Source: Sphingorhabdus sp. EL138
GTDB lineage: Bacteria > Pseudomonadota > Alphaproteobacteria > Sphingomonadales > Sphingomonadaceae
Length of the DNA stretch: 41,977 bases
Direction of reading: 5' to 3'
NCBI RefSeq assembly: GCF_945890115.1
Contig: NZ_CAMDCK010000021.1
Span: 1-41,977 of the forward strand
Below the pieces are notes generated by a model. It was not told the origin of the DNA, made no database searches, and was given only the letters and a program-made list of their open reading frames with translations. This document shows positions 19,993-41,977 of this stretch, piece after piece. Made by a program: the position numbers and the translations under genes. The stretch's first letter is position 1. Every line of letters starts with the position of its first letter.

Positions 19993-20982
19993 ATGAAATT
20001 GCCACAGGAATTTGATCTGCACGCGTTGGAAGTGTTCATCATGACCGTTGAACTTGGCGGCATGTCGCAATGCGCCGCGCATCTGCAGGTCACGCAATCG
20101 GCGGTTTCGCAAACGATTGCTCGGCTGGAAACGGGTATTGGCGCGTCCTTATTTGATCGCACAATGCGCCCATTGGGCTTAACGGCAAGCGGAAAATCGC
20201 TGTTTGCGCGCGGTCACAAGCTGATCGCCCATGCCCGCCTTGCCTATGATGAGGTCCGCGAAGGCGCAAACCTGCCGATTTCGAGCGTCACGGTTGCAAT
20301 GTCTTTCAGCTTGGCCAATGAACTTACCGCGCCCATTCTTCAACATCTGGGGCCGCGGGCAGACCGATGGAACATCCGCTCAGGCATATCGCTGGAGCAT
20401 CAAGGCGAATTTCTGGCGCGGGACATCGACATGATGGTCACCGGCAGCTTCAGCCTTGAACATCGCGACACGGTGGAACTGCACCCTGTGTTCGAGGAAA
20501 GCTTCATCATGGTTTTCCCGAGAGATTTTCGCGAACCATTGGACATAAACGGCGTGCCATCATCCTTGCCGTTCATCCGTTTTTCCCGCCTGACGGGTAC
20601 AGGGCAGCAAATCGAACGCCAGATTGTCCGGATGAAGTTGAAACTGCCGCAGATGGTCGAAGTGGAATCGTCGCATCAGCAATTGGCATTGGTTGCCGCA
20701 GGCATCGGATGGACCATCACAACGCCAGTGTGCTTGGCGGCTGTGCCGGAGCTACTGCCCGAACTGCGCGCCGAACCGATGACGCGTGGGCGCTTTTCCC
20801 GCGCGATTCAGGTTGTGGCGCGGATGGATGAACTGGGCGATATTCCGCAGCGCACCGCGGCTTTATGTCAGCAGGTTTTGCAGGAAAAAACCTTCCCGCC
20901 GCTGATTGCCGAATATCCATGGATGGCCGAACAATTGTCATGGCCCTCTCCAACGCTCGACGGCGCGGAGATGATGGCATGA
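19993..20982 (+). CDS. LysR family transcriptional regulator
   Basis: A 329-residue LTTR with an N-terminal winged helix-turn-helix (HALEVFIMTVELGGMSQCAA, then Q-S-A-V-S-Q-T-I-A-R-L-E, residues about 10-50) and a C-terminal effector-binding domain. An AAGGGG ribosome site lies 7 nt before ATG 19993. It follows the BCCT gene by 139 nt on the same strand and overlaps the hydrolase start by ATGA, so it is co-translated with that gene. Control of cluster A is a reasonable guess. The 139-nt gap contains an AT-rich stretch but no clear operator. Confidence 0.9.
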   Translation: MKLPQEFDLHALEVFIMTVELGGMSQCAAHLQVTQSAVSQTIARLETGIGASLFDRTMRPLGLTASGKSLFARGHKLIAHARLAYDEVREGANLPISSVTVAMSFSLANELTAPILQHLGPRADRWNIRSGISLEHQGEFLARDIDMMVTGSFSLEHRDTVELHPVFEESFIMVFPRDFREPLDINGVPSSLPFIRFSRLTGTGQQIERQIVRMKLKLPQMVEVESSHQQLALVAAGIGWTITTPVCLAAVPELLPELRAEPMTRGRFSRAIQVVARMDELGDIPQRTAALCQQVLQEKTFPPLIAEYPWMAEQLSWPSPTLDGAEMMA

Positions 20983-22280
20983 TCCGCAGCATCTTGCTTG
21001 CGGGCCTTGCCCTGCTCGCCCCACCCGTCCACGCAGGCGTACCGAGTATCCCCGGCGTTGACGCGCCGGAACTTGCGACATCGGGCCCAAATAAGGTTGG
21101 TTACCGGTCTGTGCTGTTGACTCATCAAAATCAGCCGGATGTCGAAAATGGGGCTTCCGGCGGTACCGAAGTTCCGCTTGTTGATCGCAATTTGCGGGTG
21201 GATATCTGGTACCCCGCAACGGTCAAAAATGGCGCAAAGCCCGTTATCTATCGCGGAAGCCTGTGGGCCGAACCACCGTTCCCGCCGGTAAACTTCTCGC
21301 AAAAGGGCATGGCTGTGGCCGACGCGAAGGCCGCAGGCGGCAAGCATCCATTGGTGATCATCAGCCATGGCTATAGCAATAATCCCGCCATGATGACGTG
21401 GTTGACCGAAAATTTGGCGTCCAAAGGCTATGTCGTTGCGGCGATCCATCACAATGACCCCAACCCTTATGTCGTGTCGCCCAGCACCCGCGCCGCGCCC
21501 AATTTCAACCGACCGCGCGACATCGTTTTTGTTGCAGGCGAACTGCGCTCTGCTTTGGGCGAACTTATCGAGGCGGATAATGTGGCGCTGATTGGCTATT
21601 CACAAGGCGGCTATGGCGTGCTCACCGCTGGCGGGGCATCGCTGGATCCGGCGGGGCCGAATATGGAACTGGTCGCGGGCGGATCACTTAAGGCATTTGC
21701 GCGGGGGCGGGCGCAGGCCGATGCCATGGCGTTAAAAGGCGTGAAGGCCATTGTGGCGCTGGCACCGGCGGGCGGCGCGCCACGCAGCGCATGGGGCGCA
21801 GAAGGTCTTGCCGCACTCACCGCGCCTTTGCTGTTAATCCATGGCGATAGCGACGCGACTGTTGACTATAAAACCGGCGGGCTTGCGGTCTTTGGTGGCG
21901 CTGTAAACAGTGATCGCACTTTGCTGACCTATAAGCAGGCTGGCCATTCGATTGCCCTTAACCCTGCACCGTCCGAAATGCGCGGGACCGTCTGGGATAT
22001 CGACTGGTTTGAAGACCCGATCTGGCGGCAGGACCGGATTAACGCCATCAACCTGCATTTCATCACTGCGTTTCTGGCCGTGCATCTGCGAAAAGACGAC
22101 AGCAAGGCGGCCTATCTGAATGTGGCCGTTGAAAATTCGGATGACGGGCAATGGAATGCGCCTGCCGGAACAGCATGGGGCGCATATAGCCCGGGCGGCG
22201 AAGGCGTGACATTATGGAAGGGCTTCCAACGCCGCCATGCACAAGGGATGACCTTGCAGCATCAGGAAGCGGCGAAGTAA
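20979..22280 (+). CDS. Exported alpha/beta hydrolase (dienelactone hydrolase / PAF-acetylhydrolase-like)
   Basis: The product is 433 residues from ATG 20979, which overlaps the LysR stop. A signal peptide is clear (MIRSILLAGLALLAPPVHAG). The alpha/beta hydrolase triad can be placed as Ser208 in GYSQGG, Asp292 in HGDSD and His323 in AGHSIAL. H-P-L-V-I-I-S-H-G at 123-131 forms the oxyanion region. A longer frame starting 38 codons upstream would lie in the LysR gene and is rejected. The enzyme probably hydrolyses esters in the periplasm. Next to a betaine transporter it could free choline or betaine from an ester, but nothing in the sequence proves this. A terminator-like hairpin follows. Confidence 0.85.
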   Translation: MIRSILLAGLALLAPPVHAGVPSIPGVDAPELATSGPNKVGYRSVLLTHQNQPDVENGASGGTEVPLVDRNLRVDIWYPATVKNGAKPVIYRGSLWAEPPFPPVNFSQKGMAVADAKAAGGKHPLVIISHGYSNNPAMMTWLTENLASKGYVVAAIHHNDPNPYVVSPSTRAAPNFNRPRDIVFVAGELRSALGELIEADNVALIGYSQGGYGVLTAGGASLDPAGPNMELVAGGSLKAFARGRAQADAMALKGVKAIVALAPAGGAPRSAWGAEGLAALTAPLLLIHGDSDATVDYKTGGLAVFGGAVNSDRTLLTYKQAGHSIALNPAPSEMRGTVWDIDWFEDPIWRQDRINAINLHFITAFLAVHLRKDDSKAAYLNVAVENSDDGQWNAPAGTAWGAYSPGGEGVTLWKGFQRRHAQGMTLQHQEAAK

Positions 22281-23045: not shown

Positions 23046-24389
23046 ATGCAGCGGAATATATCTACCGATGTCCTCGTTGTCGGCGGCGGCACTGCTGGGT
23101 TTGGCGCTGCCTGCGCGGCGGCTAGTCAAGGCGCCCGAGTCCGGTTGATTGAGGGAACCAGCAAGATCGGTGGAGTTATGTCTTTCTGTCCTGGAATGCC
23201 TTGGGGCGGCGGGTTCCCGATAGGCCGGAGCATCGGCGGCATCTTCGACACATTGACAAATATGCTTTGCAACATGCAACCGCCCTTGGCCGAGGTCCGG
23301 CCGTCCACGCTCGAGAATTTCGGTGCCGAAGTGATCTACGACCACGAAGCGGCCGTGTTCGCCATGTTCCAGATGCTGGAGGATGCGGGCGTCACTGTTC
23401 ATCTTAACACTTTCGCGGGATCTCCCGTGTTGGACGGCCAGCGCATCGTGGCGGTAGATTGCTATGACCGGACCGGGCCGCTGACTATCGCGCCAGACAT
23501 TGTGATCGATTGCTCGGGCGATGGTGACATATCCGCCAAGGCTGGCGTACCCTTCGCACTCGGCGACGAGCGCGGAAACATGATGGGCGTGACATTGTCC
23601 TTCTCGATGCTCAATGCGCCTTGGGAACAGGTCTTCGCCAGTGATGATCCCTATTTTACCAAAGAGGCCGCGCGCGGCATTGCCGAGGGCCGGTTGCACC
23701 CCGATCTTGCCAAGCTTTACCTGATGCGCGGATTTCACCGGGATACGGTCTTCTGCAACTCCGTCCATATCCGCGGGGTGGACGGAACCGATCCGCAGCA
23801 GGTGGCAACGGCAACGCAGGAAGGTCGGCGGCGCTGCCATCAGTTGGCGAAGTTTCTTATCGACTGCGTGCCGGGCTTTGAGCACGCCCGGATAAGCGAA
23901 CTAGGCCCGACCATCGGGGTGCGCGAAACTCGGAAGCTTGAGGCAGTGCGTCGTATCCTTGCCCGGGAGCTTGTGGCGGCTACCAAGTTTGCGGATGGGA
24001 TCGTCTGCTGCGACAATCCAATCGACGATGTAATGCGAAGCGACTCCGCCATGACGCATGACTCGATTGTGGCGCAGGGTAGCTATTACACCATTCCCTT
24101 CCAGGCGATGGTGCCGCGCGAAATCGAAAATCTGCTGTTCGCCGGGCGGCTGGTCTGCGCCGACCCTGCCGCCTTTGCCTCGGTTCGCGGCATGCCCCAA
24201 TGCATGGCGATGGGTGAGGCGGCGGGTATCGGGGCGTCGATCGCCCACACACAAAAGCGCGCTGTTCAAGCGCTTGATCCTGCCGAAATTATCGCTGCCC
24301 TTACTGCCCGTGGCGTCAGGGGCATAGGCGGTGAGGCTCTGTCCGATTACGCCCCGGCCTTGAAGTCATTTTCGGTCGACAAAAATTGA
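23046..24389 (+). CDS. FAD-dependent oxidoreductase (FAD_oxidored, PF12831-like), substrate unknown
   Basis: A 447-residue flavoprotein. The FAD-binding start VLVVGGGTAGFGAACAAASQ (about residues 9-28) is followed by GGVMSFCPGMPWGGGFP and the second nucleotide motif VIDCSGDGDISAKAG near 155. The C-terminal TIPFQAMVPREIENLLFAGR and G-M-P-Q-C-M-A-M-G-E-A-A-G are typical of the FAD_oxidored family (fumarate-reductase-like fold). GAAAGGATGG upstream of ATG 23046 could be the ribosome site. Third codon positions look richer in G and C than in the neighbouring genes, and the gene stands alone between gaps of about 765 and 179 nt, hinting at separate acquisition. The substrate cannot be read from the sequence; a link to the flanking sarcosine clusters is possible but unsupported. 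Confidence 0.85.
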   Translation: MQRNISTDVLVVGGGTAGFGAACAAASQGARVRLIEGTSKIGGVMSFCPGMPWGGGFPIGRSIGGIFDTLTNMLCNMQPPLAEVRPSTLENFGAEVIYDHEAAVFAMFQMLEDAGVTVHLNTFAGSPVLDGQRIVAVDCYDRTGPLTIAPDIVIDCSGDGDISAKAGVPFALGDERGNMMGVTLSFSMLNAPWEQVFASDDPYFTKEAARGIAEGRLHPDLAKLYLMRGFHRDTVFCNSVHIRGVDGTDPQQVATATQEGRRRCHQLAKFLIDCVPGFEHARISELGPTIGVRETRKLEAVRRILARELVAATKFADGIVCCDNPIDDVMRSDSAMTHDSIVAQGSYYTIPFQAMVPREIENLLFAGRLVCADPAAFASVRGMPQCMAMGEAAGIGASIAHTQKRAVQALDPAEIIAALTARGVRGIGGEALSDYAPALKSFSVDKN

Positions 24390-24568: not shown

Positions 24569-25060
24569 CTACCCTACCAAACTCTCCGCGGCTTGCTCCC
24601 AAAAGTGCAGCAGGCCCTGACTGAAGCTTAAGGGCACATAGGCGACGCAGGTGGTTTCATCGACCACGTGCAGGCGGACGTTGACATGGTCGATGATTGT
24701 CGCTGCGCTGCATCCTGCGGCGAAAGTTGGGCTTTCGGCGTCGAATACGCCGCCTTCCATCAGGAGCGTGCGCCAGCCTCTGCCTGACAGGCGGAGGCGG
24801 ACGATGCCGCCGCCGATGGCCGTTACCGCGCCGCCGTCGGATAATATGCCGGATAGTGCCGACGTATCGCCCTCGACCAGCCAGACCGTGGGTTCAAAAC
24901 GGATCAGGCGTAGCGCATCGTTGCCGCCTGACCGTCCGGTCGCGGGTAGTGCAAAGCCCATCGCAGCTTTGAAGCGTTTGGCGACAGAAGCTGCGTTGCT
25001 CCAGATTTCAAGCACATGCAGCGGGGCGGCGGGCAGGGTGGAGATTGTCAGTTCAGTCAC
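24569..25060 (-). CDS. soxG: Sarcosine oxidase gamma subunit (copy 2)
   Basis: A 163-residue protein starting at GTG 25060, which overlaps the soxA end by 8 nt, exactly as in cluster A; CAGGGGAGC upstream is a good ribosome site. A longer reading 33 codons upstream lies in soxA and is rejected. SoxG features are present: IRFEPTVWLVEG near residue 60, then G-G-V-F-D and C-S-A-A-T-I-I-D-H-V-N-V near 120. It diverges clearly from the first copy, so the two clusters are not a recent duplication. It is the last gene of cluster B. Confidence 0.83.
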   Translation of the reverse strand: MTELTISTLPAAPLHVLEIWSNAASVAKRFKAAMGFALPATGRSGGNDALRLIRFEPTVWLVEGDTSALSGILSDGGAVTAIGGGIVRLRLSGRGWRTLLMEGGVFDAESPTFAAGCSAATIIDHVNVRLHVVDETTCVAYVPLSFSQGLLHFWEQAAESLVG

Positions 25061-27788
25061 GATAACGCTCCCCTGCGGCATCATAGAAATGCGGGGCCAC
25101 AACGCGCACCCGCGCCTGTTGCCCGCGTGTGGGGGACGAGGCGATGAGAATTTCGCCATGTCGCGAAAAGCCGTCGGTCAATTGACCCAGCGCAACAGAC
25201 CCGCCCGCGATGATGCGGAAAGCCGCCGCGCTGACATGGCCCTGCGGTGATGCGCCTTCGCTGGGGATCAGCATCGCGCCTTCGGGAATGTCGCCTGCAA
25301 TCGCCTCCAAACCGACCAATTGCCGCCGTCCGGCTTCGGACAAGGCGGGGCGGGCAAGGCCCGATGCGCCAATATATCCACCCGCCTTGTTAAGCATTTT
25401 GTCGAGCGCCAGATCATGGGGCGTCATGCGCCCATCGACTTCGCCGCCGACGACCAAATGCCCCTTTTCAATGCGCAGAAACTCCATCGCCTCCAGCCCG
25501 TATAACGCGCCGCCTGCTTCGTTCACTTGCGCCTCGCAGGCGGCCCAGACGGCTTCTGCTTGGCTGGCATCGACATAGATTTCAAAGGCGCGTTCGCCGC
25601 TATAGCTGGCGGCCAAGATGATGACCGGAACGCCCGCGATTGCCGCCGGAACGGTCGACATGTGGCGCGGTGGTTCTTCACCGATTAACGTGGCGAGCAC
25701 CGCTTTTGCCTGTGGCCCGGCGACGGCAATACCAGCATAATGTTCCTGCACATTGACGGCAGATACGCGCAAATGCGGACACAGAAATTGGCGGACATAA
25801 GAGATATGCGTCGCCATGCGGTCCGCGCCGCCGGTGGAGCTGGTGAGCAGATAGCGGTTCTTGTCCAGCCGCCACACGGTGCCGTCATCAAAGACAAAGC
25901 CGTCCTCACGCAGCATGAAGGTGTAGCGTCCGCGCCCGACGGCCAGCTTGTTGACGGTCGTGGCGCAGATGATCTCCAGAAATGCCGCCGCATCGGGGCC
26001 GCTGACTTCAAATTTGGCGAGCGTAGATACGTCGGTCATGCCAACATTGTTGCGCACGGCCTTTGCCTCTCGCAGCGCGGCTTGCGCCAATGTCTCGCCG
26101 CCGGTTGGATACGCGCGCGGGCGGAACCAATAACCCAATGGCTGCCAGATCGGGTTTTTTGCCGCATGCAGATCATATAAGGCCAGGCGACGGACATGCG
26201 CGCCCGCATCTTTCGCGCTTGCGCCTGCGATCAAGCCCATAGTGACGGGCGTATAAGGCGGACGGAATGTGGTCAAACCGGCTTCGGGAATGGCGACGCC
26301 CTGCTTTTCGGCCAAGCGCCCCAAAGCGGCCATATTGCTCAGCTTGCCCTGATCAGTGGCCATGCCCAAAGTGGTGTAGCGCTTGAGATGCTCGACCGAA
26401 CGATAGCCCTCGGCCCACGCCAAATCGACATCCGCCAGCGTCACATCATTTTGAAAATCGATGAAGCTTTTCTTGGGGCTGGAAACGGGCACCATTTGGA
26501 ATATCGCTTGCGGCTCTGCGGCCCCGCCGATGGTCGTCACATTCTGACGCGAACTGGCGGGGATGAAGGCTTGCGCATCCTCATTCCAGTCAAGCGTCCC
26601 GCCCGCTTGCATGTGCAGGTGCACGACAGGGGTAAATCCGCCGGACACGGCCAGCAGATCAGCATCCCAGTCCATCGCCTTACCATCGACCAGCGCGCTT
26701 ACGCTTTTCAGGCAATGCCGTGCGCCTTTGGTCGAAAGCGGAACGGCGTCATTATAGACGCGATGCCCGCTGTTTGCACCGGCAGGGGCTGGCCGTGCGT
26801 CGAGGATAGCAACAATGTGCGCGCCTGCGTCTTTTAGCGCCTGCGCGCTTTTATAAGCATCGTCATTGTTGGTGGCGATCACGACGCGCTTGCCGGGAAC
26901 GACGCCGAAGCGGTGGACATATGTCCGCACAGCTTGTGACAGCATGACACCGGGGCGGTCATTATGGGCAAAGGCCATGGGCCGCTCAATGCTTCCGGTG
27001 GCGAGAATGACTTGGCCAGCGCGGACATGCCATAAACGTTGCGCAACGCCCTGCGCGGGAATTTGCCCCGGCTCCGATATGCGCTGGGTTAAGGTAACAA
27101 GATCATGTTCCCAATAGCCAGAGGCCGTGGTGCGCGTGAGGATGACGCCCCCTGCGGCGCGGATGCGTTCGGCGGTCGCGTTGATCCAATCTGCATCCTG
27201 TTCTTGGCGATCACGCAGCAAGGACGGGGCGAGGATATTGTCTTGTTCGACCAAGATGACGCGCTTGCCGCTTTCGGCAGCGTCGAGCGCCGCCTGCATA
27301 CCTGCGGGGCCAGCGCCGACGACCAAGACATCACAAAAGGCGGCACGCTGGCTGAAACGGTCGGGGTCCGCCAGGGTGGGTGCATTGCCAAGGCCAGCTG
27401 CTTTGCGGATGAAATATTCGTAGAACATCCATTTTTTGGCCGAACCAAAAAAGGTCTTATAATAAAATCCGGCTGACAAAGCTGGCGCAGCAAGGCCCAA
27501 AACCGCCCCGACATCGAACGACAAATTTGGCCAGCGGTTCTGGCTTTTGGCGACAAGGCCTTCATAGACGAACACATCGGTGGCGCGCGTGTTGGGCTCG
27601 GCCCTGCCGCCTTCGCCGACGGTGACGAGCGCATTTGGCTCTTCAACGCCTGCGGTCATGATGCCGCGGGGGCGGTGATATTTGAAACTGCGGCCGACAA
27701 GGCCAATGCCGTTGCGCAACAATGCTGCCGCCAGCGTGTCGCCTGCCTGCGCGGTATAGGTTGTACCATCAAAGCGGAAGGTGGTCAT
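25053..27788 (-). CDS. soxA: Sarcosine oxidase alpha subunit (copy 2)
   Basis: From ATG 27788, which overlaps the soxD stop and has GGAGG 8 nt upstream, the product is 911 residues. A start 10 codons earlier would lie in soxD. The domains match SoxA: FRFDGTTYTAQAGDTLAAAL and GRSFKYHRPRG near the N-terminus, VLVVGAGPAGMQAALDAAES near 150, the linker FRPPYTPVTMG near 505, and a GcvT-like C-terminal half with MTDVSTLAKFEVSGPDAAAF and YSGERAFEIYVD. It is about 40 residues shorter than copy 1 and well diverged. As part of a second soxBDAG set it may act on sarcosine or another N-methyl amino acid. Confidence 0.93.
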   Translation of the reverse strand: MTTFRFDGTTYTAQAGDTLAAALLRNGIGLVGRSFKYHRPRGIMTAGVEEPNALVTVGEGGRAEPNTRATDVFVYEGLVAKSQNRWPNLSFDVGAVLGLAAPALSAGFYYKTFFGSAKKWMFYEYFIRKAAGLGNAPTLADPDRFSQRAAFCDVLVVGAGPAGMQAALDAAESGKRVILVEQDNILAPSLLRDRQEQDADWINATAERIRAAGGVILTRTTASGYWEHDLVTLTQRISEPGQIPAQGVAQRLWHVRAGQVILATGSIERPMAFAHNDRPGVMLSQAVRTYVHRFGVVPGKRVVIATNNDDAYKSAQALKDAGAHIVAILDARPAPAGANSGHRVYNDAVPLSTKGARHCLKSVSALVDGKAMDWDADLLAVSGGFTPVVHLHMQAGGTLDWNEDAQAFIPASSRQNVTTIGGAAEPQAIFQMVPVSSPKKSFIDFQNDVTLADVDLAWAEGYRSVEHLKRYTTLGMATDQGKLSNMAALGRLAEKQGVAIPEAGLTTFRPPYTPVTMGLIAGASAKDAGAHVRRLALYDLHAAKNPIWQPLGYWFRPRAYPTGGETLAQAALREAKAVRNNVGMTDVSTLAKFEVSGPDAAAFLEIICATTVNKLAVGRGRYTFMLREDGFVFDDGTVWRLDKNRYLLTSSTGGADRMATHISYVRQFLCPHLRVSAVNVQEHYAGIAVAGPQAKAVLATLIGEEPPRHMSTVPAAIAGVPVIILAASYSGERAFEIYVDASQAEAVWAACEAQVNEAGGALYGLEAMEFLRIEKGHLVVGGEVDGRMTPHDLALDKMLNKAGGYIGASGLARPALSEAGRRQLVGLEAIAGDIPEGAMLIPSEGASPQGHVSAAAFRIIAGGSVALGQLTDGFSRHGEILIASSPTRGQQARVRVVAPHFYDAAGERYRD

Positions 27789-28048
27789 GGCAACGCCTCC
27801 GGCCCGATAGCGCGGCACTCGGAAATTTCATTCGTGACGCGGTGGCGCGTCAAAACCATCCATGCCCGGCAGCCATAAGTATGCCGCCAGATTTCCTCAT
27901 CCACGCCGCGCGGATTATTGCGGGTGAAGAGCTTGGTCATGGCCTCTTGTGATGGCGCATCCAGCGGCACGACGGAATCGACCGTGCGCTCATAAATGAA
28001 TTCTGATTGCGCCCGTGGGCCGCAATGGGGGCATGGAATGCGCATCAT
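27785..28048 (-). CDS. soxD: Sarcosine oxidase delta subunit (copy 2)
   Basis: An 87-residue SoxD with zinc ligands Cys6 and Cys9 (PCPHC) and His56/Cys60 (WRHTYGC). The start ATG shares one base with the soxB stop (TAATG) and the end overlaps soxA by ATGA. The residues after the last ligand, R-A-W-M, differ from the G-R-F-F of copy 1. Confidence 0.92.
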   Translation of the reverse strand: MMRIPCPHCGPRAQSEFIYERTVDSVVPLDAPSQEAMTKLFTRNNPRGVDEEIWRHTYGCRAWMVLTRHRVTNEISECRAIGPEALP

Positions 28049-29304
28049 TAGCGGCTATTCGGCATCGGGCCGCTCCCCGTTTCATCAATGGTTGCGCCGC
28101 GTTCAAAGCGGTCGAGTGAGAAAGGCGCGTTCAGCGCATGCGGCTTTCCAGTGGCAAGCGTATGGGCGTAGGTCCAACCGGACGCTGGCGTTGCCTTGAA
28201 CCCGCCATAGCACCAGCCACCGTTGAGGAAGAGGTTGCGCATCGGCGTTTCACCAATGATGGGCGCGCCATCAAAACTCATATCGGTAACGCCGCTCCAC
28301 GTCCGCACCATGCGCAGGCGGGACAAAGCGGGCACGAGCGCCAGACCTTGCGCCACCGCGCCTTCCATCACCATCGGGTGGCCGCGCTGGGCATAGCTTG
28401 GCCAATTATCCGGGTCGCCGCCAAAGACGACGCCGCCCTTGTCCGATTGGCTGATATAGCAATGCAAGGATTGCGACATGATCACGCTGTTGATCATCGG
28501 CTTGACACCTTCGGTCACCATGGCTTGCAGGGTTTGGGATTCAATCGGCAGTTTTAGGCCTGCAAGGCCCGCGACATGGCCGCTATTGCCTGCAACGCAA
28601 ATGCCGACGCGCCCCGCGCCAATACGTCCGCGCGTGGTCTCCACGCCCACTACGCCGTCGCCATCACGCACAAAGCCTGTGACTTCGCATTTTTGAATGA
28701 TATCGACGCCCAGACTGTCCGCGCCCCGCGCATAGCCCCAGGCGACGGCATCATGCCGCGCGGTGCCGCCACGGCGCTGGATCAGGCCACCTTGAATGGG
28801 AAAGCGCGCGTCGCGCGACATATCGAGCAAAGGCTCAAGCTTTGCCACCTGATCCCGGCTTAATAGATCAGCATCAATCCCGTCGCAGCGCATGGCGTCG
28901 CCGCGTTCCGCCAGCTTGACCATATCGGCGTCGCTATGACCAAGGAACATCGCGCCACGCGGGCTGAACATCACATTGTAATTCAACTCATCGCTCAGGC
29001 CGTGCCACAGCTTCAGGCCAAATTCGAAGAGATTATGCAGAGGCTCAAGCCGATAATTGGACCGCACAATCGTCGTATTGCGGCCCGTATTGCCGCCACC
29101 AATCCAGCCTTTTTCCAGAACGGCAATATTCTTCAGACCATGCACCTTGGCTAAATAATATGCCGTCGCCAACCCATGACCGCCACCGCCGATTATGATG
29201 ATATCATAATGCGATTTGGGTTCTGGGTCACGCCATGCTGGTTGCCAGTGGCGCTGCCCGGTAAGAGCGCCGCGCAACAGGCTGAAGGCGGAATATCGGC
29301 TCAT
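28048..29304 (-). CDS. soxB: Sarcosine oxidase beta subunit (copy 2)
   Basis: From ATG 29304, overlapping the upstream stop, the protein is 418 residues. It keeps IIIIGGGGHGLATAY at 35-49, [12 protein letters not shown] at 66-77 and His184 in GGTARHDAVAW, the expected covalent FMN site, all at the same positions as copy 1. The region after RSNY (84-98) and the C-terminal GGWCYGGFKATPASG are diverged. It lies directly downstream of an OoxB-like oxidase gene rather than a cupin, which sets cluster B apart. Confidence 0.93.
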   Translation of the reverse strand: MSRYSAFSLLRGALTGQRHWQPAWRDPEPKSHYDIIIIGGGGHGLATAYYLAKVHGLKNIAVLEKGWIGGGNTGRNTTIVRSNYRLEPLHNLFEFGLKLWHGLSDELNYNVMFSPRGAMFLGHSDADMVKLAERGDAMRCDGIDADLLSRDQVAKLEPLLDMSRDARFPIQGGLIQRRGGTARHDAVAWGYARGADSLGVDIIQKCEVTGFVRDGDGVVGVETTRGRIGAGRVGICVAGNSGHVAGLAGLKLPIESQTLQAMVTEGVKPMINSVIMSQSLHCYISQSDKGGVVFGGDPDNWPSYAQRGHPMVMEGAVAQGLALVPALSRLRMVRTWSGVTDMSFDGAPIIGETPMRNLFLNGGWCYGGFKATPASGWTYAHTLATGKPHALNAPFSLDRFERGATIDETGSGPMPNSR

Positions 29305-30437
29305 GCGATGGGCATCCACCCACGCTTTTCACGCCAATCCTTTTCAAGACCGTCAAAGCGCGACAGTTTGAGAAGGTCGATATTGGTAAAGGAACACGCG
29401 CCGTCGATCACGAGATCGCGGATCGCATGGCCTGATGCCGGCGACAGGCCAAAGCCGACGCTGGACATAGAGGCGACGACGACATTGTCGGGGCTGGTGA
29501 GCCGATCAATGATCGGGCGGCCATCGGGTGAGTTCTCAATCACACCTGCCCAGCTACGGATGACGTTCAGATGCGCGGCCTTAGGCAATAGTTCGGCCAA
29601 ACGCTTTGCCAGATTGCGCGCCAGCGGCGTCGATGGACGGGCAGCGGGGCCTGTCGCATCCACATCCAGCCATTCATGCGGCCCGCCACCATAAGCAAGG
29701 TTGCCGCGCAACGTCTGGCGACCATAAATCTTATGTCCATCGACGCCGCCCAGCGGCATCATGGGGGCAGGCTCTGTAATGATCATTTCCGCGCGTGCAG
29801 CAGCGAGCGGGACATCGACGCCCAATTGCGCCATCAACTGCGGGATTTGCGGTCCAGCCGCGACCACAACCGCATCACAGCCATAAGTGGCATTGGCCGT
29901 CTTCACCGATGTGACCTTGCCACCAGCGGTTTCAAACCCCGTGACTGGGCTGTGCTGAATGATTGTGCCACCCAGATCTTGCAACGCCCAAGCATAAGCC
30001 TGAACCGTGCGTTGCGGGTTGGCATGACCGCCAAATTTATAATGCACGCCGCCAAAGCTGTTGTCGCCCGCCAGCGGAACGGCCTCTTGCACTTGCTTGA
30101 CGTCAAGCACCTCGACAGGGTGGTTGAGGCGGGTGTGGCGTTCGGCAATAAACCGATATTGGTCCCATTGACGTTCCGTCATCGCAATCAGGATGCGGCC
30201 TTTTTGATGTTCCGTCGGATAACCGAGTAGCTCATCCATTTGCGGCCAAAGCCTTTGTTCTTCATCGAACAAGGGGCTGGAATAATGTGACGCGCCGCCG
30301 CCATTGCGTCCAGACGCTTCCCAGCCGACGATGAACTTTTCGAGCACGGTGACCTTCACACCCGAACGCGCCAGCCACCAGCCTGCGCTGAGACCAGTGA
30401 CGCCACCGCCGACTATGACTACTTCAGAGCCGCTCAT
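29301..30437 (-). CDS. DAO-type FAD oxidase subunit, OoxB/HcnC-like
   Basis: A 378-residue single-domain flavoprotein from ATG 30437; earlier starts would lie inside the upstream gene, whose stop it overlaps (ATGA). The FAD motif VVIVGGGVTGLSAGWWLARS is at about residues 5-24, W-E-A-S-G-R-N-G-G-G-A-S-H near 41-53, and the C-terminal IENSPDGRPIID and GFGLSPASGHAI close the DAO fold. It pairs with the preceding HcnB/OoxA-like gene. Together they resemble membrane-linked heteromeric dehydrogenases for opines, glycine (HcnABC) or D-hydroxyproline, in which this subunit oxidises the C-N bond. Here the likely substrate is a secondary or tertiary N-methyl amino acid produced by the Rieske oxygenase, which is inference from context. 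Confidence 0.82.
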   Translation of the reverse strand: MSGSEVVIVGGGVTGLSAGWWLARSGVKVTVLEKFIVGWEASGRNGGGASHYSSPLFDEEQRLWPQMDELLGYPTEHQKGRILIAMTERQWDQYRFIAERHTRLNHPVEVLDVKQVQEAVPLAGDNSFGGVHYKFGGHANPQRTVQAYAWALQDLGGTIIQHSPVTGFETAGGKVTSVKTANATYGCDAVVVAAGPQIPQLMAQLGVDVPLAAARAEMIITEPAPMMPLGGVDGHKIYGRQTLRGNLAYGGGPHEWLDVDATGPAARPSTPLARNLAKRLAELLPKAAHLNVIRSWAGVIENSPDGRPIIDRLTSPDNVVVASMSSVGFGLSPASGHAIRDLVIDGACSFTNIDLLKLSRFDGLEKDWREKRGWMPIA

Positions 30438-31897
30438 GTATACATCCCCGTGTAGAGCATCTCGCGATGCGCATCCTGATATTCTGTGCCAATATCTTCG
30501 ACCGGCACCCATTGGGTTGGAATGCCGAACCAGACATCCCAGGCCGCATCCATGGCCGCAGGCTCATCCCATTCTGCCAAAATCTTCAGCGGCAGGGGAC
30601 GCACGGGGGCGCGATGCGTTGCGAGCGGAATAGTGCCAAATGGCTTATTCGATTCAATGGCCAGCATCATCGCCACCTGATCGCGACAGCGACGGCCCTG
30701 ACACACACCCATGCCAGAGCGCGTCAGCCGCTTGATCTGATCCGGATTGGCCGGGCCATCGTTGAGCAGCGTGTCGAGCGAGCGGGCCTGAAGCGTCGCG
30801 GGGCGCGGCAAATAGTTGGGCGGCTGAATACCGATCAGGTCCGCCAGTGTTACGTCTTCACATTGGCAGATGATTGTATCGGGCGCGTTGACGCGCAGCG
30901 CCGCACGCACCCAATCCATCCGATAGGCGACATGGTCAAAACCCGTGTCGGGCAAGCCAGCGCACAGACCCACAGCCGTTACATTTGGTTCTCCCGCCGG
31001 AATATATCCACCGCGCGCCGCGTTCAGCGCCCTTGGGCCATGCATGGCATCAACCAGCTCAATTGAGGGGATAAGGCCAATGGCGACGCAAACGGTGTCG
31101 CACGCAATCTGTGTGCCGTCGGTCAAGGTGATGGATTCAATCCCATCCAGCCCGCCTTTGCTTGCCGCGATGCTTTGCCCATAAAATATGGCAATGCCCG
31201 CCGACGTAATTTTTTCGAGGAGCGCAGCATCGCCTTGCGGGGTATCGCGCACCTCCACCAGAGCGGCGACATCCAACCCATGCTCCAGCGCCAAAAGCGC
31301 AGTTTCGAGCGCGAGGTCATGCGACCCCAAAACGACAATCCGCCGTCCAGAAAAGGCGCCATAACGCGACAACAACATCTGCAAGGCGGCGGCTCCCATC
31401 ACACCGGGCTGGTTCCAGCCGGGAAAGGCAATGGCCAAGTCGCGGGCGCCCGTGGCGAGCACAATCCGGTCAAAGCCGACCAACCAAGACCGTTCCGCAT
31501 CGGCAAGACCAACAACTTGCTCTGGCAAGCTCTGCACGCCGGGCCCGTTGCGATATACGCCCCAGGCGGTGGTACCGAGCAGCAGTTCAACGCCCGCTTC
31601 CATCGCCTTTTCAAGATCCGGCATGCTCATGAAAATCGCTTCGAGCATTCGGTCTGCATTCTGCGTCGCGGCCGTCATGCGGCCACCGAAATAGAGCGGC
31701 GTATCATTGCCCATCAGCCCGCCAGACACGGGATTTTCATCCACCAGAAGCACAGATGCGCCGCTGGCCGCGCCTTCGATAGCCGCGGCAATGCCGCTTG
31801 GTCCGGCGCCAATGACAACAAGGTCATATTTTGCTTCGGGCGCGCTTCGTGTGCCATTAACGGCGCACACATCGGTTCCGGTAAAGTTCAGATCCAT
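30434..31897 (-). CDS. NAD(P)/FAD oxidoreductase with BFD-like [2Fe-2S] domain, OoxA/HcnB-like
   Basis: From ATG 31897, sharing one base with the upstream stop (TGATG), the product is 487 residues. It has a pyridine-nucleotide-disulfide-type fold with YDLVVIGAGPSGIAAAIEGA at about 23-42, a second motif IVVLGSHDLALETALLALE, and IVLATGARD. A bacterioferritin-associated-ferredoxin-like cluster site follows: C-Q-C-E-D-V-T and G-V-C-Q-G-R-R-C, four Cys for a [2Fe-2S] cluster. The arrangement is that of opine oxidase OoxA and HcnB, the electron-transfer partner of a DAO-type subunit, which is encoded next. A C-terminal tail of about 50 residues after P-L-P-L (W-D-V-W-F-G-I-P-T and so on) looks longer than in those relatives. 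Confidence 0.83.
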   Translation of the reverse strand: MDLNFTGTDVCAVNGTRSAPEAKYDLVVIGAGPSGIAAAIEGAASGASVLLVDENPVSGGLMGNDTPLYFGGRMTAATQNADRMLEAIFMSMPDLEKAMEAGVELLLGTTAWGVYRNGPGVQSLPEQVVGLADAERSWLVGFDRIVLATGARDLAIAFPGWNQPGVMGAAALQMLLSRYGAFSGRRIVVLGSHDLALETALLALEHGLDVAALVEVRDTPQGDAALLEKITSAGIAIFYGQSIAASKGGLDGIESITLTDGTQIACDTVCVAIGLIPSIELVDAMHGPRALNAARGGYIPAGEPNVTAVGLCAGLPDTGFDHVAYRMDWVRAALRVNAPDTIICQCEDVTLADLIGIQPPNYLPRPATLQARSLDTLLNDGPANPDQIKRLTRSGMGVCQGRRCRDQVAMMLAIESNKPFGTIPLATHRAPVRPLPLKILAEWDEPAAMDAAWDVWFGIPTQWVPVEDIGTEYQDAHREMLYTGMYT

Positions 31898-33156
31898 CAA
31901 ACTGCTTCCAATGCCTGTTTCAAATCGCCGATCAAATCGTCAACATGTTCCAACCCGACCGATAGCCGCATCGTGCCATCGGTTATCCCGCCTTCCAATC
32001 GCTTTTCCTGTGCGACTGCATAATGCGTTGTGCTCGCCGAATGGCAGATCAATGTTTCTGACCCGCCAAGGCTGACCGCCAATTTCATCAGTTTGAGTTG
32101 ATCCAACATCCGGAACGCCTCTGCCTCACCGCCATGCAGGTGGAAGGAGAAGGTTGATCCGGCGGCGTTGCACTGCCGATCATATACCGCGCGGGCGCGG
32201 CTGCCTTCTTCAAGGAAGCCGAGATAAGTCACGTCCGCGACCTTAGGATGACTGCGCAAAAACTTTGCGACGCCGCGCGCATTTTCCATCGCGCGTTCGG
32301 TGCGCACGGCTACCGATTCAAGTGAACGCAGGACCAGCCACGCGGTATAGGGGTCAAGATGATTGCCCCAAGTCGTGCGTTGCATACGCAAATGTTCAAC
32401 CAACTCTTTACGACCTGTAATCCCGCCAGCCAGTAAGTCACTATGTCCACCGCAATATTTGGTGAGCGACGTCATGCATAGGTCAACCCCATGCGCAATG
32501 GGCCGTTGCGCAAATGGACCCAGCAAAGTGTTGTCAACGACCACAAGCGGGCGGTGCCCCTGCTGCTCCCCAATCTCGTCGGCAATCCGCACCATCAGGT
32601 CAAGGTCAACCAAGGCTGCGGTCGGGTTTGCGGGCGTTTCTGCGATAATAAGCTTGAGCGGGCCCTTGGCCATTGCTGCTTGCGCCGCTGCGCGCACATC
32701 GACCTCGTCCGTACCATCAAGATATGCGGCGGCATGCGACCCGAATTGCGGCATGATGCCATTGTAAAGCATGTCGACCCCGCCATAGATAGGGCGGCCG
32801 TGCAATATGCTGTCGCCGGGGCGGACATACGCAAGCGCGATGCTCGAGTGCGCGGCCATGCCGCTGGAATAAGCAACCGCCTCTTCTGCACCGTCAATGG
32901 CGGCCAGACGCTTTTCCAGAAAATCCAATCCGGGATGGCCAAGCCGGGAATAAATATGGTTGGTTTCGCCGACCAATGGCCCCGTGCCGTCAAAATACGC
33001 CTCATGGACATTTTTGGCATGCTGCGCTGTGGGATAGACAAAGGTAGATGTCATGAAAATCGGTGGCTTCACCGATCCCATGCCCATTTCAGGGTCATAG
33101 CCATAAGCGACCGCGAGCGTTTCGGGACGCAACCCCTTGATGTTATCCTTTGCCAT
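31897..33156 (-). CDS. PLP-dependent Cys/Met-metabolism family enzyme (gamma-lyase/synthase fold)
   Basis: From ATG 33156 the product is 419 residues, the normal size; it overlaps the upstream oxygenase stop by 14 nt. Schiff-base Lys233 lies in MTSLTKYCGGHSDLLAG and the PLP-ring Asp208 in VVVDNTLLGP. The phosphate-binding loop is AYSSGMAA (95-102). The tyrosine/arginine pair of the neighbouring subunit appears as Y69-S-R71, but the usual N-P-T after it is H-P-G (74-76), and Y-G-x-T is Y124-G-G-V. This is therefore not a standard methionine gamma-lyase or cystathionine enzyme. Its place between a Rieske demethylase and demethylating flavoenzymes suggests gamma-elimination or replacement on a demethylated amino acid with a gamma substituent. 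The actual substrate is unknown. Confidence 0.8.
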   Translation of the reverse strand: MAKDNIKGLRPETLAVAYGYDPEMGMGSVKPPIFMTSTFVYPTAQHAKNVHEAYFDGTGPLVGETNHIYSRLGHPGLDFLEKRLAAIDGAEEAVAYSSGMAAHSSIALAYVRPGDSILHGRPIYGGVDMLYNGIMPQFGSHAAAYLDGTDEVDVRAAAQAAMAKGPLKLIIAETPANPTAALVDLDLMVRIADEIGEQQGHRPLVVVDNTLLGPFAQRPIAHGVDLCMTSLTKYCGGHSDLLAGGITGRKELVEHLRMQRTTWGNHLDPYTAWLVLRSLESVAVRTERAMENARGVAKFLRSHPKVADVTYLGFLEEGSRARAVYDRQCNAAGSTFSFHLHGGEAEAFRMLDQLKLMKLAVSLGGSETLICHSASTTHYAVAQEKRLEGGITDGTMRLSVGLEHVDDLIGDLKQALEAV

Positions 33157-34354
33157 GAGTCGCAATATACTCACGGGCCTTGTCGCAATAATAGTCGGTA
33201 AAACGCAGCGCGAGCATTTCAGCTTCTTGCGAATAAGGGCCGGGTGTGTAGCCAAGGCTGTTGACGCCAATTTGATTGTTTTCGGCCAGCGCCTTGTCTT
33301 CCAAATTGGTCATAGTCCACAATGCAATCAGCTTTTCGACATCATAATCGACGCCTTCTACGGCATCCTTATGCACATACCATTTGCCCGTCACATGGGT
33401 TTCATTGGGGCCAACGGGCATGGCGCTGAACATGAAAGCATGGTCCGCCGTGCAATGAACAAAGCAATGCGGATCAACCGCCCAGCGCATCGAACCGATA
33501 TCGCCGTCATTGGCCTCGCACATCAACTTTTTGGACAAATGCTGGCCATCACTCGATATCGAAACACAGCCTTCGTTCAATGCAAAACGGGCGATTTGCC
33601 AGTAATGCCCTTCAACAGGGGTTTGTGGCAGGCCGAGCGCGTCCATTTGGGTTTCAAACGCGATGACGCGGGCATCATGGCCACTGTCAAAATGCTTCGA
33701 CATGCCCACCGGGAATGTCTTCGACAATTCGGGATGACCAGTACTGCAATGATAGCATTCCCGGCCATTTTCCATCACCAGTTTCCAATTGGCATTTTCG
33801 ACCAGAACGCTTTCATACGCTAGCTTTGCATCTTTCAGATTATGCGGCGCGGCATATTCGGTCAGTTTTGCACGGAAGTCGTCAATTGGCGGCGGCCTAT
33901 CCGACAAGCAGATAAAAATCGTTCCCGATATGCATTCAATGGCAATCGGCTTTAGGCCATGTTCGCTTTTGTCAAAATCGCTCTCCATCCGGCCTGCCGC
34001 GAACAGGGAGCCGTCGAGATCATAGGTCCAACGATGATACGGGCAAACCAGCTTTGGCGTTGTGCCAGTGCCCGGCGCGCAAATCATGGAGCCACGGTGG
34101 CGGCAGCTATTATGAAACGCACGGATCGTGCCTTCTTTATCGCGCGTGATAACCACAGGCCATTTGCCGACCATCATCGAGACATAGCTGCCCGCTTTTG
34201 GCAGCTCGCATTCCATGCCAGCCATCAACCAGCTTTGGCCAAAAATCGCGGCCATATCAAAATCAAAGCTTTCAGCCTCGATGTACAAAGCCTGCGGTAA
34301 CGTATGCCCTTCGCGACGCTGTTCAAAAAGCGTGCTTATCCGCTTCAAATCCAT
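33143..34354 (-). CDS. Rieske oxygenase alpha subunit, GbcA type (copy 2)
   Basis: From ATG 34354 (AAGGTC upstream) the product is 403 residues; 39 further open codons upstream have no ribosome site and are not used. Rieske ligands are Cys84-x-His86 and Cys104-x2-His107, and the iron site is ENGRECYHCSTGHPEL with His202 and His207. HCTADHAFMF, HKDAVEGVDYD and NQIGVNSLGY-x-PGPYS are strongly GbcA-like, so either copy could be the true glycine betaine enzyme. It opens cluster B and is divergent from a LysR gene. No ferredoxin-reductase partner is encoded nearby. I leave the symbol blank because cluster B appears to handle another or an additional substrate. Confidence 0.82.
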   Translation of the reverse strand: MDLKRISTLFEQRREGHTLPQALYIEAESFDFDMAAIFGQSWLMAGMECELPKAGSYVSMMVGKWPVVITRDKEGTIRAFHNSCRHRGSMICAPGTGTTPKLVCPYHRWTYDLDGSLFAAGRMESDFDKSEHGLKPIAIECISGTIFICLSDRPPPIDDFRAKLTEYAAPHNLKDAKLAYESVLVENANWKLVMENGRECYHCSTGHPELSKTFPVGMSKHFDSGHDARVIAFETQMDALGLPQTPVEGHYWQIARFALNEGCVSISSDGQHLSKKLMCEANDGDIGSMRWAVDPHCFVHCTADHAFMFSAMPVGPNETHVTGKWYVHKDAVEGVDYDVEKLIALWTMTNLEDKALAENNQIGVNSLGYTPGPYSQEAEMLALRFTDYYCDKAREYIATHGKG

Positions 34355-34530: not shown

Positions 34531-35445
34531 TTGCCGTTAAATGCCCTGCGCGCATTTGAAGCGGTAGGACAGAATTTAAGCTTCACCGGCGGTGCGTCGG
34601 CGCTTTCGGTGTCGCAAAGTGCCATGAGCCGTCATGTTGGCGGACTTGAGGAACTATTGGGCAAGCAATTGTTGGTACGCGACGCGTCGCGGCTTTCGCT
34701 TACGGCGGCAGGCGAAGAATTGTTGCCGGTGGTGAGCAAATGCCTCGACCGACTGGAGCAAACGATGAACTCCATTCGCGATGATGATGTGACTGGCCGT
34801 TCGCTGCGACTGCATGTGCCGCCCTCGCTGCTGCAACAATTGTTCCTGCCGATGCTGCGTGATTTTCACGTTGAACATCCCGATCTGCGCCTCGATGTCT
34901 CGAGTGCGCATGTGACGGGGCTGCCCGCAACCGATTTCGACATGGCGATTGTGTATGACCGGCCCAATGTTGATGACCGGATTACCGATCTTCTCTGGAT
35001 GGTGCGCGTCGCGCCTTTATGTTCGCCGGCAACAGCGGCCAGCGGTCAGGGCAAGTCACTGGAGGATTTTTTGAAAAGTGCAGAGCTTTTGCATCTGAAA
35101 CTGGATGGCGAGCCGCGCGACCTTTTATGGACGGCCTATCTCCGGCAAAGTCAGTTGGCTGTTGCGACGCATGGTGGTCTTGCCTTTGATACCACGATTG
35201 CCGTTGCGCAATATGCTATGGCGGCCGACGGCGTCTTTTTGGGCGATATTGATATGTTCGCGCAGGAAATTGCCGATGGGCGGCTTGTGATGCCTTATGA
35301 CGCCGTGATTGAAGACGGCTATGGCTATTATTTGAAACTGCACGCCGATGATTTGGCTGACCCCGCCATTTCGATGCTCCGAAGCTGGTTGATCAGCCGT
35401 TTTGGGGCATTGCGGCAAGCGCCGAATCCGCGCGCGCCAGACTGA
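34531..35445 (+). CDS. LysR family regulator, GcvA-like, divergent from cluster B
   Basis: An LTTR of at least 304 residues with P-L-N-A-L-R-A-F-E-A-V at the start, the helix-turn-helix F-T-G-G-A-S-A-L-S-V-S-Q-S-A-M-S near residues 18-33, and a GcvA-like effector domain. The only standard start is TTG 34531. GcvA relatives begin a few residues earlier with R-R-x-L-P-P-L-N, and here the frame is open upstream to TGA 34483 with AAAGGT at 34485-34490, so translation may begin at a rare codon near 34495-34516. It shares a 176-nt control region with gbcA copy 2, the usual LTTR layout for regulating the divergent operon. Its 3' end overlaps fdhD by 53 nt. Confidence 0.88.
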   Translation: MPLNALRAFEAVGQNLSFTGGASALSVSQSAMSRHVGGLEELLGKQLLVRDASRLSLTAAGEELLPVVSKCLDRLEQTMNSIRDDDVTGRSLRLHVPPSLLQQLFLPMLRDFHVEHPDLRLDVSSAHVTGLPATDFDMAIVYDRPNVDDRITDLLWMVRVAPLCSPATAASGQGKSLEDFLKSAELLHLKLDGEPRDLLWTAYLRQSQLAVATHGGLAFDTTIAVAQYAMAADGVFLGDIDMFAQEIADGRLVMPYDAVIEDGYGYYLKLHADDLADPAISMLRSWLISRFGALRQAPNPRAPD

Positions 35446-36193
35446 TCAAGCGCAGGCCAGCTTTTTGCGCGATATGAATCGCCAAGTCGGTCGCAGCGGA
35501 AATCGTCACGAGCATGGGACAGTTTGCAAGGATCGTCTTTTGCACCAGTTCAAGGCTGCACCGCGCGGTCAGGATGATGAAGCCAGCCGAGATATCGATG
35601 CCCGCACGGGCCAGTGCCCCAATTAACTTGTCGAGCGCATTATGACGACCAACATCCTCGCGCGTCATTAGGATAGCGCCGTCGGGCGCGCAAAATGCCG
35701 CCGCATGTGCAGCACCCGTATCGGCATTCAATGTCTGATGCGACCGCAATGCAGATAGCGCCAAAAAAATCGCCGCATCGGCGACCGCAATCTGCGCCGT
35801 TACCGGCGGCAAAGGGCGCATGACTTCTTCGAGATTGTCCATGCCACACAGGCCGCAGCTGCTTTCCGAGACACGCTGACGGGCGCGGGCAACGACTTTC
35901 TCGGCGTTTTTCTGGGGTAGCTGAATACGCAATATCCAGCCCAATTCTGACTGATGGACGTCAAGGGCCAGAATATCGTCTGGGCGCTCAATCAACCCTT
36001 CCGACAGGCTGAAACCCACGGCATAGTCGGCAAGATCAATCGGCGTCGCCATCATCACGGCATAGCCGATGCCATTATATTCAATCGCGATGGGCGCTTC
36101 GGAGATGACGGCCCGGACTATAGCTTCGGGGGAACCATGATCGGGTTTAAGCACCGCAAAGCGTATAGGTTTTGCGCCTTGTTCAACCGCCAT
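35393..36193 (-). CDS. fdhD: Formate dehydrogenase accessory sulfurtransferase FdhD
   Basis: A 266-residue FdhD. The sulfur-carrier Cys pair is C113-G-L-C116 in SSCGLCGMDN, and the family stretches VGFSLSEGLI (59-68), DTGAAHAAAF, TREDVGRHNALDKLIG and FIILTARCSLELVQKT are all present. FdhD moves sulfur from a desulfurase to the molybdenum cofactor, a step needed for active formate dehydrogenase. It overlaps fdsD by 11 nt and is the last gene of the fds operon. Its C-terminal codons overlap the convergent LysR gene by 53 nt. Confidence 0.95.
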   Translation of the reverse strand: MAVEQGAKPIRFAVLKPDHGSPEAIVRAVISEAPIAIEYNGIGYAVMMATPIDLADYAVGFSLSEGLIERPDDILALDVHQSELGWILRIQLPQKNAEKVVARARQRVSESSCGLCGMDNLEEVMRPLPPVTAQIAVADAAIFLALSALRSHQTLNADTGAAHAAAFCAPDGAILMTREDVGRHNALDKLIGALARAGIDISAGFIILTARCSLELVQKTILANCPMLVTISAATDLAIHIAQKAGLRLISLARADSALAAMPQNG

Positions 36194-36395
36194 TTTGCGC
36201 GTCGGCCAGCAAGCTTATGGCGGCCGCAGCAATTGGCGACAGGCCATCTGTCCCATGGGCAAAAATCATCTTTTTCATCCGCGGGTCCCAGAATGTCTGG
36301 ATATGGTCTGCGACCGCCGCAGCGGGCGCAGCGTCGGTTGCCAGATTGGTCGCAATCTGGTTCGCCATGTGGATGAGGCGCTCCACACTGTTCAT
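36183..36395 (-). CDS. fdsD: NAD-dependent formate dehydrogenase delta subunit
   Basis: A 70-residue FdsD with RLIHMANQIATNLA at 6-19 and V-A-D-H-I-Q-T-F-W-D-P-R-M-K at 28-41, the family's conserved core. This small subunit is needed for assembly of the soluble FdsABG complex. It overlaps the fdsA stop (ATGA) and fdhD, giving strict coupling. Confidence 0.93.
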   Translation of the reverse strand: MNSVERLIHMANQIATNLATDAAPAAAVADHIQTFWDPRMKKMIFAHGTDGLSPIAAAAISLLADAQNGG

Positions 36396-39250: not shown

Positions 39251-39258
39251 GTCTCTAC

Positions 39259-41650: not shown

Positions 41651-41977
<327 letters not shown>

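Follow-up and report, generated by a model that had tools for sequence, protein, structure and literature searches.

The stretch analysed here, referred to as the window, is the 41,977-nucleotide contig NZ_CAMDCK010000021.1 from the 2.31 Mb genome of Sphingorhabdus sp. EL138. Its minus strand carries an operon of eight intact open reading frames (24569-34354), here called cluster B, in which genes for a Rieske oxygenase, an OoxAB-like dehydrogenase and a sarcosine oxidase (SoxBDAG) are joined to a gene for a pyridoxal phosphate (PLP) enzyme of the Cys/Met metabolism family. The PLP gene belongs to this operon and is not a passenger in it; the operon occurs in the window's family and in three other families of its class. 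As to function, we hold the case to be about evenly balanced that cluster B is a catabolic operon for the stepwise oxidative N-demethylation of an N-methylated alpha-amino acid, followed by elimination on the PLP enzyme. Genomes and fetched loci are given below by G and L numbers, the window's own genome being G000.

Layout of cluster B

In the 5' to 3' direction of the operon the genes run Rieske, PLP, OoxA-like, OoxB-like, SoxB, SoxD, SoxA and SoxG. All neighbouring pairs overlap by 1-32 bases (in order 14, 1, 4, 4, 1, 4 and 32). The first-pass annotation had described eight overlapping genes in one operon with these identities; the overlaps bear out the operon, and scans against Pfam and NCBIfam families bear out the Rieske, PLP, OoxAB-like and SoxBDAG assignments.

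The first gene (33143-34354) encodes a GbcA-like alpha subunit of a Rieske non-haem iron oxygenase (PF00355, Rieske; PF00848, Ring_hydroxyl_A), which putatively carries out the first N-demethylation. It scores 448.4 bits on the GbcA equivalog model, below the cut-off of 670, and the nearest PDB entries are 3n0q, 3vca and 4qup. The motifs CRH...CPYH and H-x4-H were spotted by eye, and we take these to be the Rieske ligands and the iron site. The PLP gene (31897-33156; PF01053, Cys_Met_Meta_PP, E = 9e-97) follows, its product being a member of an operon-specific clade with a putative beta- or gamma-elimination activity. The OoxA-like gene (30434-31897) encodes a flavin adenine dinucleotide (FAD) subunit with Pyr_redox_2 (PF07992) and SO_alpha_A3 (PF17806) domains and a BFD-like cysteine region; on PF04324 it scores 22.5 bits, below the cut-off of 26. 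Its partner (29301-30437; PF01266, E = 2e-63) is an OoxB-like amine dehydrogenase subunit of the DAO family, putatively responsible for the second N-demethylation, with 1y56_B as its nearest PDB entry. OoxA is the name we presume for the first of the pair; nothing matched an OoxA model, and an OoxAB model was absent from the best 25 NCBIfam matches of either subunit. OoxAB opine oxidase and the PH1363/PH1364-type dehydrogenases (PDB 1y56) also pair FAD subunits, and both chains, 1y56_A and 1y56_B, rank among the best PDB matches. The similarity to these systems is nevertheless low, the likeness lying in domain make-up, and the cluster B substrate would presumably be an N-methyl amine, not proline or an opine.

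The sarcosine oxidase genes complete the operon. SoxB (28048-29304), a DAO-type beta subunit, passes TIGR01373 with 657.3 against a cut-off of 529.45, while the other three subunits fall under their heterotetrameric sarcosine oxidase models: SoxD (27785-28048; PF04267, E = 6e-21) with 77.9 under 116.5, SoxA (25053-27788; Fer2_4, SO_alpha_A3 and folate-binding GCV_T domains) with 995.5 under 1164 on TIGR01372, and SoxG (24569-25084), named from its position after SoxA and without a Pfam match, with 45.8 bits under 143.95 on TIGR01375. A divergent LysR-family gene on the plus strand (34531-35445; PF00126, PF03466) is the putative regulator of the operon. Its best NCBIfam match is GcvA, at 174.3 under a cut-off of 288.

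The PLP gene, its partners and its clade

Linkage was tallied over 66 fetched loci, several of which are near-duplicates of one species and not independent events. All fifty loci with a PLP protein of at least 57 per cent identity have the operon partners; none of the sixteen at 48-54 per cent has LysR_B, Rieske, OoxA, OoxB or SoxB. Within the fifty, a divergent LysR gene lies no more than 4.5 kb upstream of the PLP gene in forty-nine (the remaining one lacks room), and a Rieske gene lies on the same strand no more than 1.5 kb upstream in forty-eight (one lacks room, and L109, from G982, is truly without it). OoxA is found within 400 bases downstream in forty-nine, one again lacking room, and OoxB within 2.5 kb downstream in forty-six, with too little room in the other four. 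SoxB follows within 5 kb in forty-one; of the remaining nine, five offer too little space, and L034, L071, L072 and L096 have room and no Sox gene in line, two of these four carrying an N-methyl-amino-acid-oxidase-like DAO in its stead.

In genome-wide searches of 249 genomes of the family, PLP matches at E ≤ 1e-130 occur in thirteen, eleven at 66 per cent identity or more and two at 52-54 per cent that are located elsewhere; OoxB orthologues at E ≤ 1e-90 occur in exactly the eleven genomes with the operon-type PLP gene. Across 385 genomes of the class, PLP matches occur in eleven including G000, of which G600 (59 per cent) and G287 (58 per cent) have the gene in the operon and eight at 51-53 per cent have it outside. 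A second, overlapping family draw yielded PLP matches at E ≤ 1e-160 in 24 of 397 genomes; neighbourhoods were examined in seventeen of these, and in G137 and G192 via neighbouring coordinates, G1025, G1054, G1075, G992 and G1052 being left out. In a phylum draw, OoxB at E ≤ 1e-70 was found in 6 of 398 genomes, and G000, G050, G600 and G971 hold the operon. The co-occurrence of PLP, Rieske and OoxAB genes across genomes, which the first-pass annotation had proposed as a check, is thus almost without exception. Different genera, and further families of the class, retain the gene order, which makes the arrangement more than chance. Its carriers are freshwater bacteria of the sphingomonad type, and cultivated ones include Sphingorhabdus rigui DSM 29050, S. 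wooponensis and S. contaminans.

The common core is the PLP gene with OoxAB; the Rieske gene is nearly always present, and SoxBDAG or a DAO serves as a further demethylase in most loci. In G287 (L072) the operon reads Rieske, GbcB-like reductase (213.5 bits, cut-off 500), PLP, OoxA, OoxB and the N-methyl-amino-acid-oxidase-like DAO, and behind the divergent LysR gene come an OpuAC binding protein, a permease of the betaine/choline type (below cut-off) and an ATPase that passes the proV model. G971 (L096) has LysR, Rieske, PLP, OoxA, OoxB and a DAO 54 per cent identical to that of L072, and both of these DAO proteins score best on the N-methyl-tryptophan oxidase model, below its cut-off. In G600 (L071) OoxB is followed by a formaldehyde dehydrogenase passing TIGR02818 and an esterase-family protein; L099 shows Sox genes, which run on the opposite strand, and Fdh genes in the vicinity. 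On a Novosphingobium capsulatum plasmid (L034) the run LysR, Rieske, PLP, OoxA, OoxB continues with a CocE/NonD hydrolase, in which a signal peptide was apparent by eye, and a TonB receptor; the plasmid also carries a SoxB homologue (75 per cent) some 75 kb from the operon. In another Novosphingobium locus (L031) two MTTB-family genes, which pass Pfam and not the trimethylamine equivalog TIGR02369, and a formate-tetrahydrofolate ligase gene adjoin the operon. G982 keeps LysR-PLP-OoxAB-SoxBDAG and has three dimethylglycine dehydrogenase (DMGDH)-like genes.

Outside the operon clade, plasmid homologues at 48-49 per cent in Rhizobium, Sinorhizobium, Shinella and Methylocystis (six records) have no LysR_B, Rieske, OoxA, OoxB or SoxB gene beside them, and the B3/4 protein of the canavanine-lyase context was not found in the annotated records among them (the Sinorhizobium record M103 carries no annotation). 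One member of the wider PRK07049 family lies near an aromatic amino acid lyase (L073:12549-13949) and another beside a MetE-domain protein (L075:7979-9001), so the family has several contexts.

The window's PLP protein narrowly passes the model of that family, NF005455/PRK07049 'cystathionine gamma-synthase family protein', with 520.1 against 504; two members found in other contexts reach 677 and 682. It falls short of the methionine gamma-lyase (MGL) equivalog model (337.8, cut-off 549.7) and lies far below the cut-offs of the cystathionine synthase, lyase and sulfhydrylase models among its best 25 of 48 models. Among named enzymes, its nearest relatives of solved structure are MGLs, and the nearest named contigs belong to Sphingorhabdus and other Sphingomonadales, with up to 91 per cent identity over the full length. 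For residue comparison we aligned the proteins with an MGL sequence. On MGL numbering the operon PLP proteins retain the residues at the places of Y59, R61, Y114, D186, S208, K211 and R375, with the single exception of an A for S208 in L071; the window's protein keeps Y69, R71, Y124, D208, K233 and R397. At the places of MGL C116, K240 and D241 it has G126, R260 and T261, and across the operon proteins the last of these is T, V or L, as opposed to G in other PRK07049 members.

At sixteen diagnostic positions 41 operon rows differ from 14 other rows. Among these positions are H67, I68, L72 and G73, which surround the Y69/R71 loop, D128, located two residues beyond the C116 place, and Y379, which is S in the others. 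In a tree of 67 rows, 49 operon PLP proteins fall on one side of a branch with a support of 96/100, recovered in 95 per cent of bootstraps and 0 of 500 shuffles, and the clade sits on a long stem. Eight long branches were flagged, including L096, L072, L071 and two outgroups, and the placement of L096 may reflect length attraction. The operon proteins thus share with PRK07049 (PDB 5ijg, 7swh) a passed model and the main catalytic residues, but form a separate long-stem clade with its own diagnostic positions, the sole one with Rieske and OoxAB in the loci examined. From these sequences the protein resembles a Cys/Met enzyme that carries out elimination or substitution in a remodelled pocket, and not an MGL. 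The host genome encodes two further Cys/Met-family enzymes, one scoring best on O-succinylhomoserine sulfhydrylase models (515 against 675, for example) and under every cut-off, the other passing the cystathionine beta-lyase model TIGR01324, so the PLP gene is probably dispensable for ordinary transsulfuration. The linkage, the clade and these other enzymes led us to reject a passenger or ordinary methionine enzyme as the main explanation.

Proposed pathway and competing explanations

In the pathway that we propose, the Rieske oxygenase would hydroxylate one N-methyl group, to be released as formaldehyde, OoxAB would take off the second and the SoxBDAG complex would move the third onto tetrahydrofolate. 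The PLP enzyme would act last, because it requires a free amino group: it would form an aldimine with the demethylated amino acid and eliminate the side-chain leaving group, giving a 2-oxo acid and ammonia. Neighbouring genes would oxidise the formaldehyde via formate, and methylene-tetrahydrofolate would likewise pass to the formaldehyde and formate genes. All of these reactions, their order and the substrate are inferred from the sequence, which directly shows the genes, their arrangement and conservation, and the PLP clade. The most likely substrate would be an N,N,N-trimethyl (betaine-type) alpha-amino acid with a leaving group on the beta or gamma carbon. A quaternary ammonium compound is supported by the betaine/choline-type transporter and GbcB-like reductase of G287 and by the two MTTB-family genes of Novosphingobium. 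Three consecutive demethylations had been suggested in the first-pass annotation; cluster B encodes three such putative activities, while the number is not fixed among relatives, given G982 without a Rieske gene and four loci that have room and no SoxB behind OoxB.

Glycine-betaine catabolism (GbcAB, dimethylglycine dehydrogenase, SoxBDAG) is the nearest known kind of pathway, sharing with cluster B a Rieske oxygenase, a flavin demethylase, SoxBDAG and nearby formaldehyde and formate genes. Cluster B differs in having OoxAB in place of dimethylglycine dehydrogenase, which it lacks, a PLP enzyme in the operon, a Rieske protein below its cut-off and a Sox complex partly below its cut-offs. The window itself has a further cluster on its plus strand (cluster A, 9285-19853), with a DMGDH-like protein of DAO, FAO_M and GCV_T domains, a Rieske protein, SoxBDAG and a BCCT transporter; one of the three DMGDH-like genes of G982 is that of cluster A. 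The first-pass annotation had held that cluster A already serves glycine betaine. Gene content agrees with this, whereas the GbcA model does not separate the clusters, since both Rieske proteins (A at 422.8, B at 448.4) fail its cut-off. The two SoxB proteins are 53 per cent identical. Between 43 B-type and 4 A-type sequences, 50 positions differ at 95 per cent or more, and the B-type has 'CY' in place of 'GT' immediately ahead of GGFK. The R and K of 'IVRSNY' and 'GGFKATP', which we take, by analogy with monomeric sarcosine oxidase, to bind the carboxylate, are kept, so the substrate of the cluster B Sox complex is probably still an alpha-amino acid.

These comparisons bear on a rather unlikely alternative, namely that cluster B is a second glycine-betaine pathway in which Rieske, OoxAB (replacing dimethylglycine dehydrogenase) and SoxBDAG lead to glycine, the PLP enzyme being an accessory for homocysteine or sulfur amino acids that helps to bring one-carbon units into methionine. 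The comparable GbcA scores of the two Rieske proteins, the SoxB match to the sarcosine oxidase beta model and the MetE-domain gene adjoining one other PRK07049 member (L075) would suit it. It sits poorly, however, with the adjacency of clusters A and B in the window and several relatives (L103, L104, L031), the two other Cys/Met enzymes of the genome, the lack of a methyltransferase gene in the operon and a distinct PLP clade that does not occur outside the operon in the 66 loci. Another possibility, which we judge improbable, is that OoxAB is of the opine-oxidase type and cleaves a secondary amine in a larger conjugate, so that Sox would receive sarcosine and the PLP enzyme the other half. 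L097 and L098, which have OoxAB beside SoxBDAG-type genes and peptide-, nickel- or amino-acid-type ABC transporters with no PLP or Rieske gene, fit this idea; it leaves the Rieske gene and the betaine transporter of G287 unexplained, and the DAO proteins in the place of Sox in G287 and G971 score best on an N-methyl-tryptophan oxidase model, below its cut-off.

Returning to demethylation followed by elimination, our preferred substrate is the head group of the betaine lipid diacylglyceryl-trimethylhomoserine (DGTS), as glyceryl-O-trimethylhomoserine or trimethylhomoserine. We put it forward tentatively, at well under even confidence. Both compounds fit because they are quaternary, become alpha-amino acids once demethylated and carry a gamma leaving group; the products would be glycerol (or water), 2-oxobutyrate and ammonia. 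That sphingomonads strip all three methyls from glyceryl-trimethylhomoserine and that a dedicated PLP lyase then cuts at the ether carbon, giving glycerol, 2-oxobutyrate and ammonia, is slightly more doubtful again. Canavanine gamma-lyase, likened here by reaction and not by sequence, is a chemical precedent for gamma-elimination by a PLP enzyme; as we read the chemistry, its reaction breaks the bond from the gamma carbon to oxygen. That PLP enzyme converts canavanine to homoserine and hydroxyguanidine, according to PMC10018355. The circumstantial support for DGTS consists of secreted-looking hydrolases and of genes on the product side. In G090 (L066:1690-7063) LysR_B is directly followed on the same strand by a pyruvate dehydrogenase E1-like 2-oxo-acid dehydrogenase (144 on aceE, far below cut-off), GlpK (647.8 over 590.35) and GlpD (712.1 over 360), and the E1-like gene recurs in three more loci, where it adjoins the operon once (L027) and cluster A twice (L103, L104). 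An alpha/beta hydrolase gene in the window (20979-22280, plus strand), with PETase- and PAF-AH-like Pfam and PDB matches and an apparent signal peptide (MIRSILLAGLALLAPPVHA, by eye), is convergent with SoxG and could possibly encode the esterase that frees the substrate. Homologues occur in twenty fetched loci (among them two pairs that each overlap within a single genome), and in loci of the Sphingorhabdus type the gene adjoins SoxG. The hydrolase of L034 is a different one.

The same logic could apply to other substrates, an unlikely option that we count as part of the evenly weighed proposal: methionine betaine, which would lose methanethiol, a betaine of the cysteine or serine type, which would undergo beta-elimination, or an amino acid with one or two N-methyl groups. 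The MGLs among the closest named structures point this way and the Rieske-less G982 would fit a dimethyl or monomethyl substrate, while the replacement of MGL C116, K240 and D241 in the aligned operon proteins speaks against it and the term methionine betaine was not found in a narrow literature search.

Several observations weigh against the proposed pathway or its lipid substrate. The G982 genome has no Rieske homologue at E ≤ 1e-60, and G000 has no GbcB-like reductase over the cut-off of 500 (best 38.8 bits). Two of the six phylum-draw OoxB genomes, G961 and G435, have OoxAB beside SoxBDAG and neither PLP nor Rieske gene, so OoxAB need not share a substrate with the PLP enzyme. The replacements at G126 and R260 are common to other PRK07049 members. 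No uptake gene lies within the operon and the kinds of adjoining transporter vary between lineages; a glycine betaine ABC transporter also stands beside a non-operon PRK07049 gene in Shinella (L038:9586-12659), so a neighbour of this kind does not mark out the operon clade. The alpha/beta hydrolase may belong to either cluster, since it lies between them. GlpK adjoins the operon in one of 24 operon genomes (G090; in G1091 the two share a contig at a distance of about 31 kb) and is hardly enriched, being present in 23 of the 24 against 170 of 199 family genomes (operon genomes included) and over its cut-off in 17 of 24 against 106 of 199. The genome-wide search covered GlpK. With adjacency in G090 and such slight enrichment, we dropped GlpK/GlpD from a general sign of glycerol release to a weak hint. 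Own-genome searches gave no BtaA match, so the cell would need an external source of DGTS and is unlikely to be recycling its own.

Overall, the gene arrangement reported in the first-pass annotation is confirmed and its interpretation partly supported; the DGTS head group that it had named remains a fitting candidate on circumstantial grounds.

Flanking genes and wider meaning

On the minus strand at 35393-41956 lie FdhD (PF02634), formate dehydrogenase genes (FdhA and FdhB being named from order and context) and a formaldehyde (S-hydroxymethylglutathione) dehydrogenase gene of which the C-terminal part is present. This last fragment (41651-41956) is 74 per cent identical to L071:13398-14504, which passes TIGR02818. 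These genes putatively dispose of the released formaldehyde. The formaldehyde dehydrogenase next to OoxB in L071 and PurU, two genes behind SoxG in L068, likewise fit one-carbon disposal.

Other genes recur near the clusters. A FAD_oxidored protein is encoded at 23046-24389 of the window, and a relative at 27-32 per cent lies near the operon in L031, L064 and L071, accompanied by an MFS transporter in the latter two. FA_desaturase-family proteins that are 45 per cent identical to each other lie beside the operon in two distant families (L064:14365-15306 and L096:6845-7843). An alcohol dehydrogenase (ADH) gene and a 3-hydroxyisobutyrate-dehydrogenase-like gene recur near the clusters in L063, L071 and L121, with an aldehyde dehydrogenase gene as well in L071 and L121.

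Betaine lipids stand in for phospholipids in algae and some bacteria under phosphate limitation, as described in PMC8752610 and PMC4796936, and DGTS occurs in phosphorus-starved Phaeobacter (PMC10132767, DGTS passages). No bacterial breakdown route for the DGTS head group appeared in the literature covered, mostly titles and the starts of abstracts together with those passages, and neither this gene set nor DGTS head-group breakdown was found among the matches listed, including the portions consulted of PMC10018355, PMC12478193 and PMC10132767. A conserved operon with a defined PLP clade offers a direct way to seek bacterial breakdown of betaine-lipid head groups. If the DGTS proposal is true, these bacteria would recover glycerol, 2-oxobutyrate and ammonia from a lipid that contains no phosphorus and occurs in many algae. 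Even with another betaine as substrate, the coupling of N-demethylation to PLP elimination would add a module to the known glycine-betaine and proline-betaine routes and would assign a function to a clade so far named just 'cystathionine gamma-synthase family protein'.

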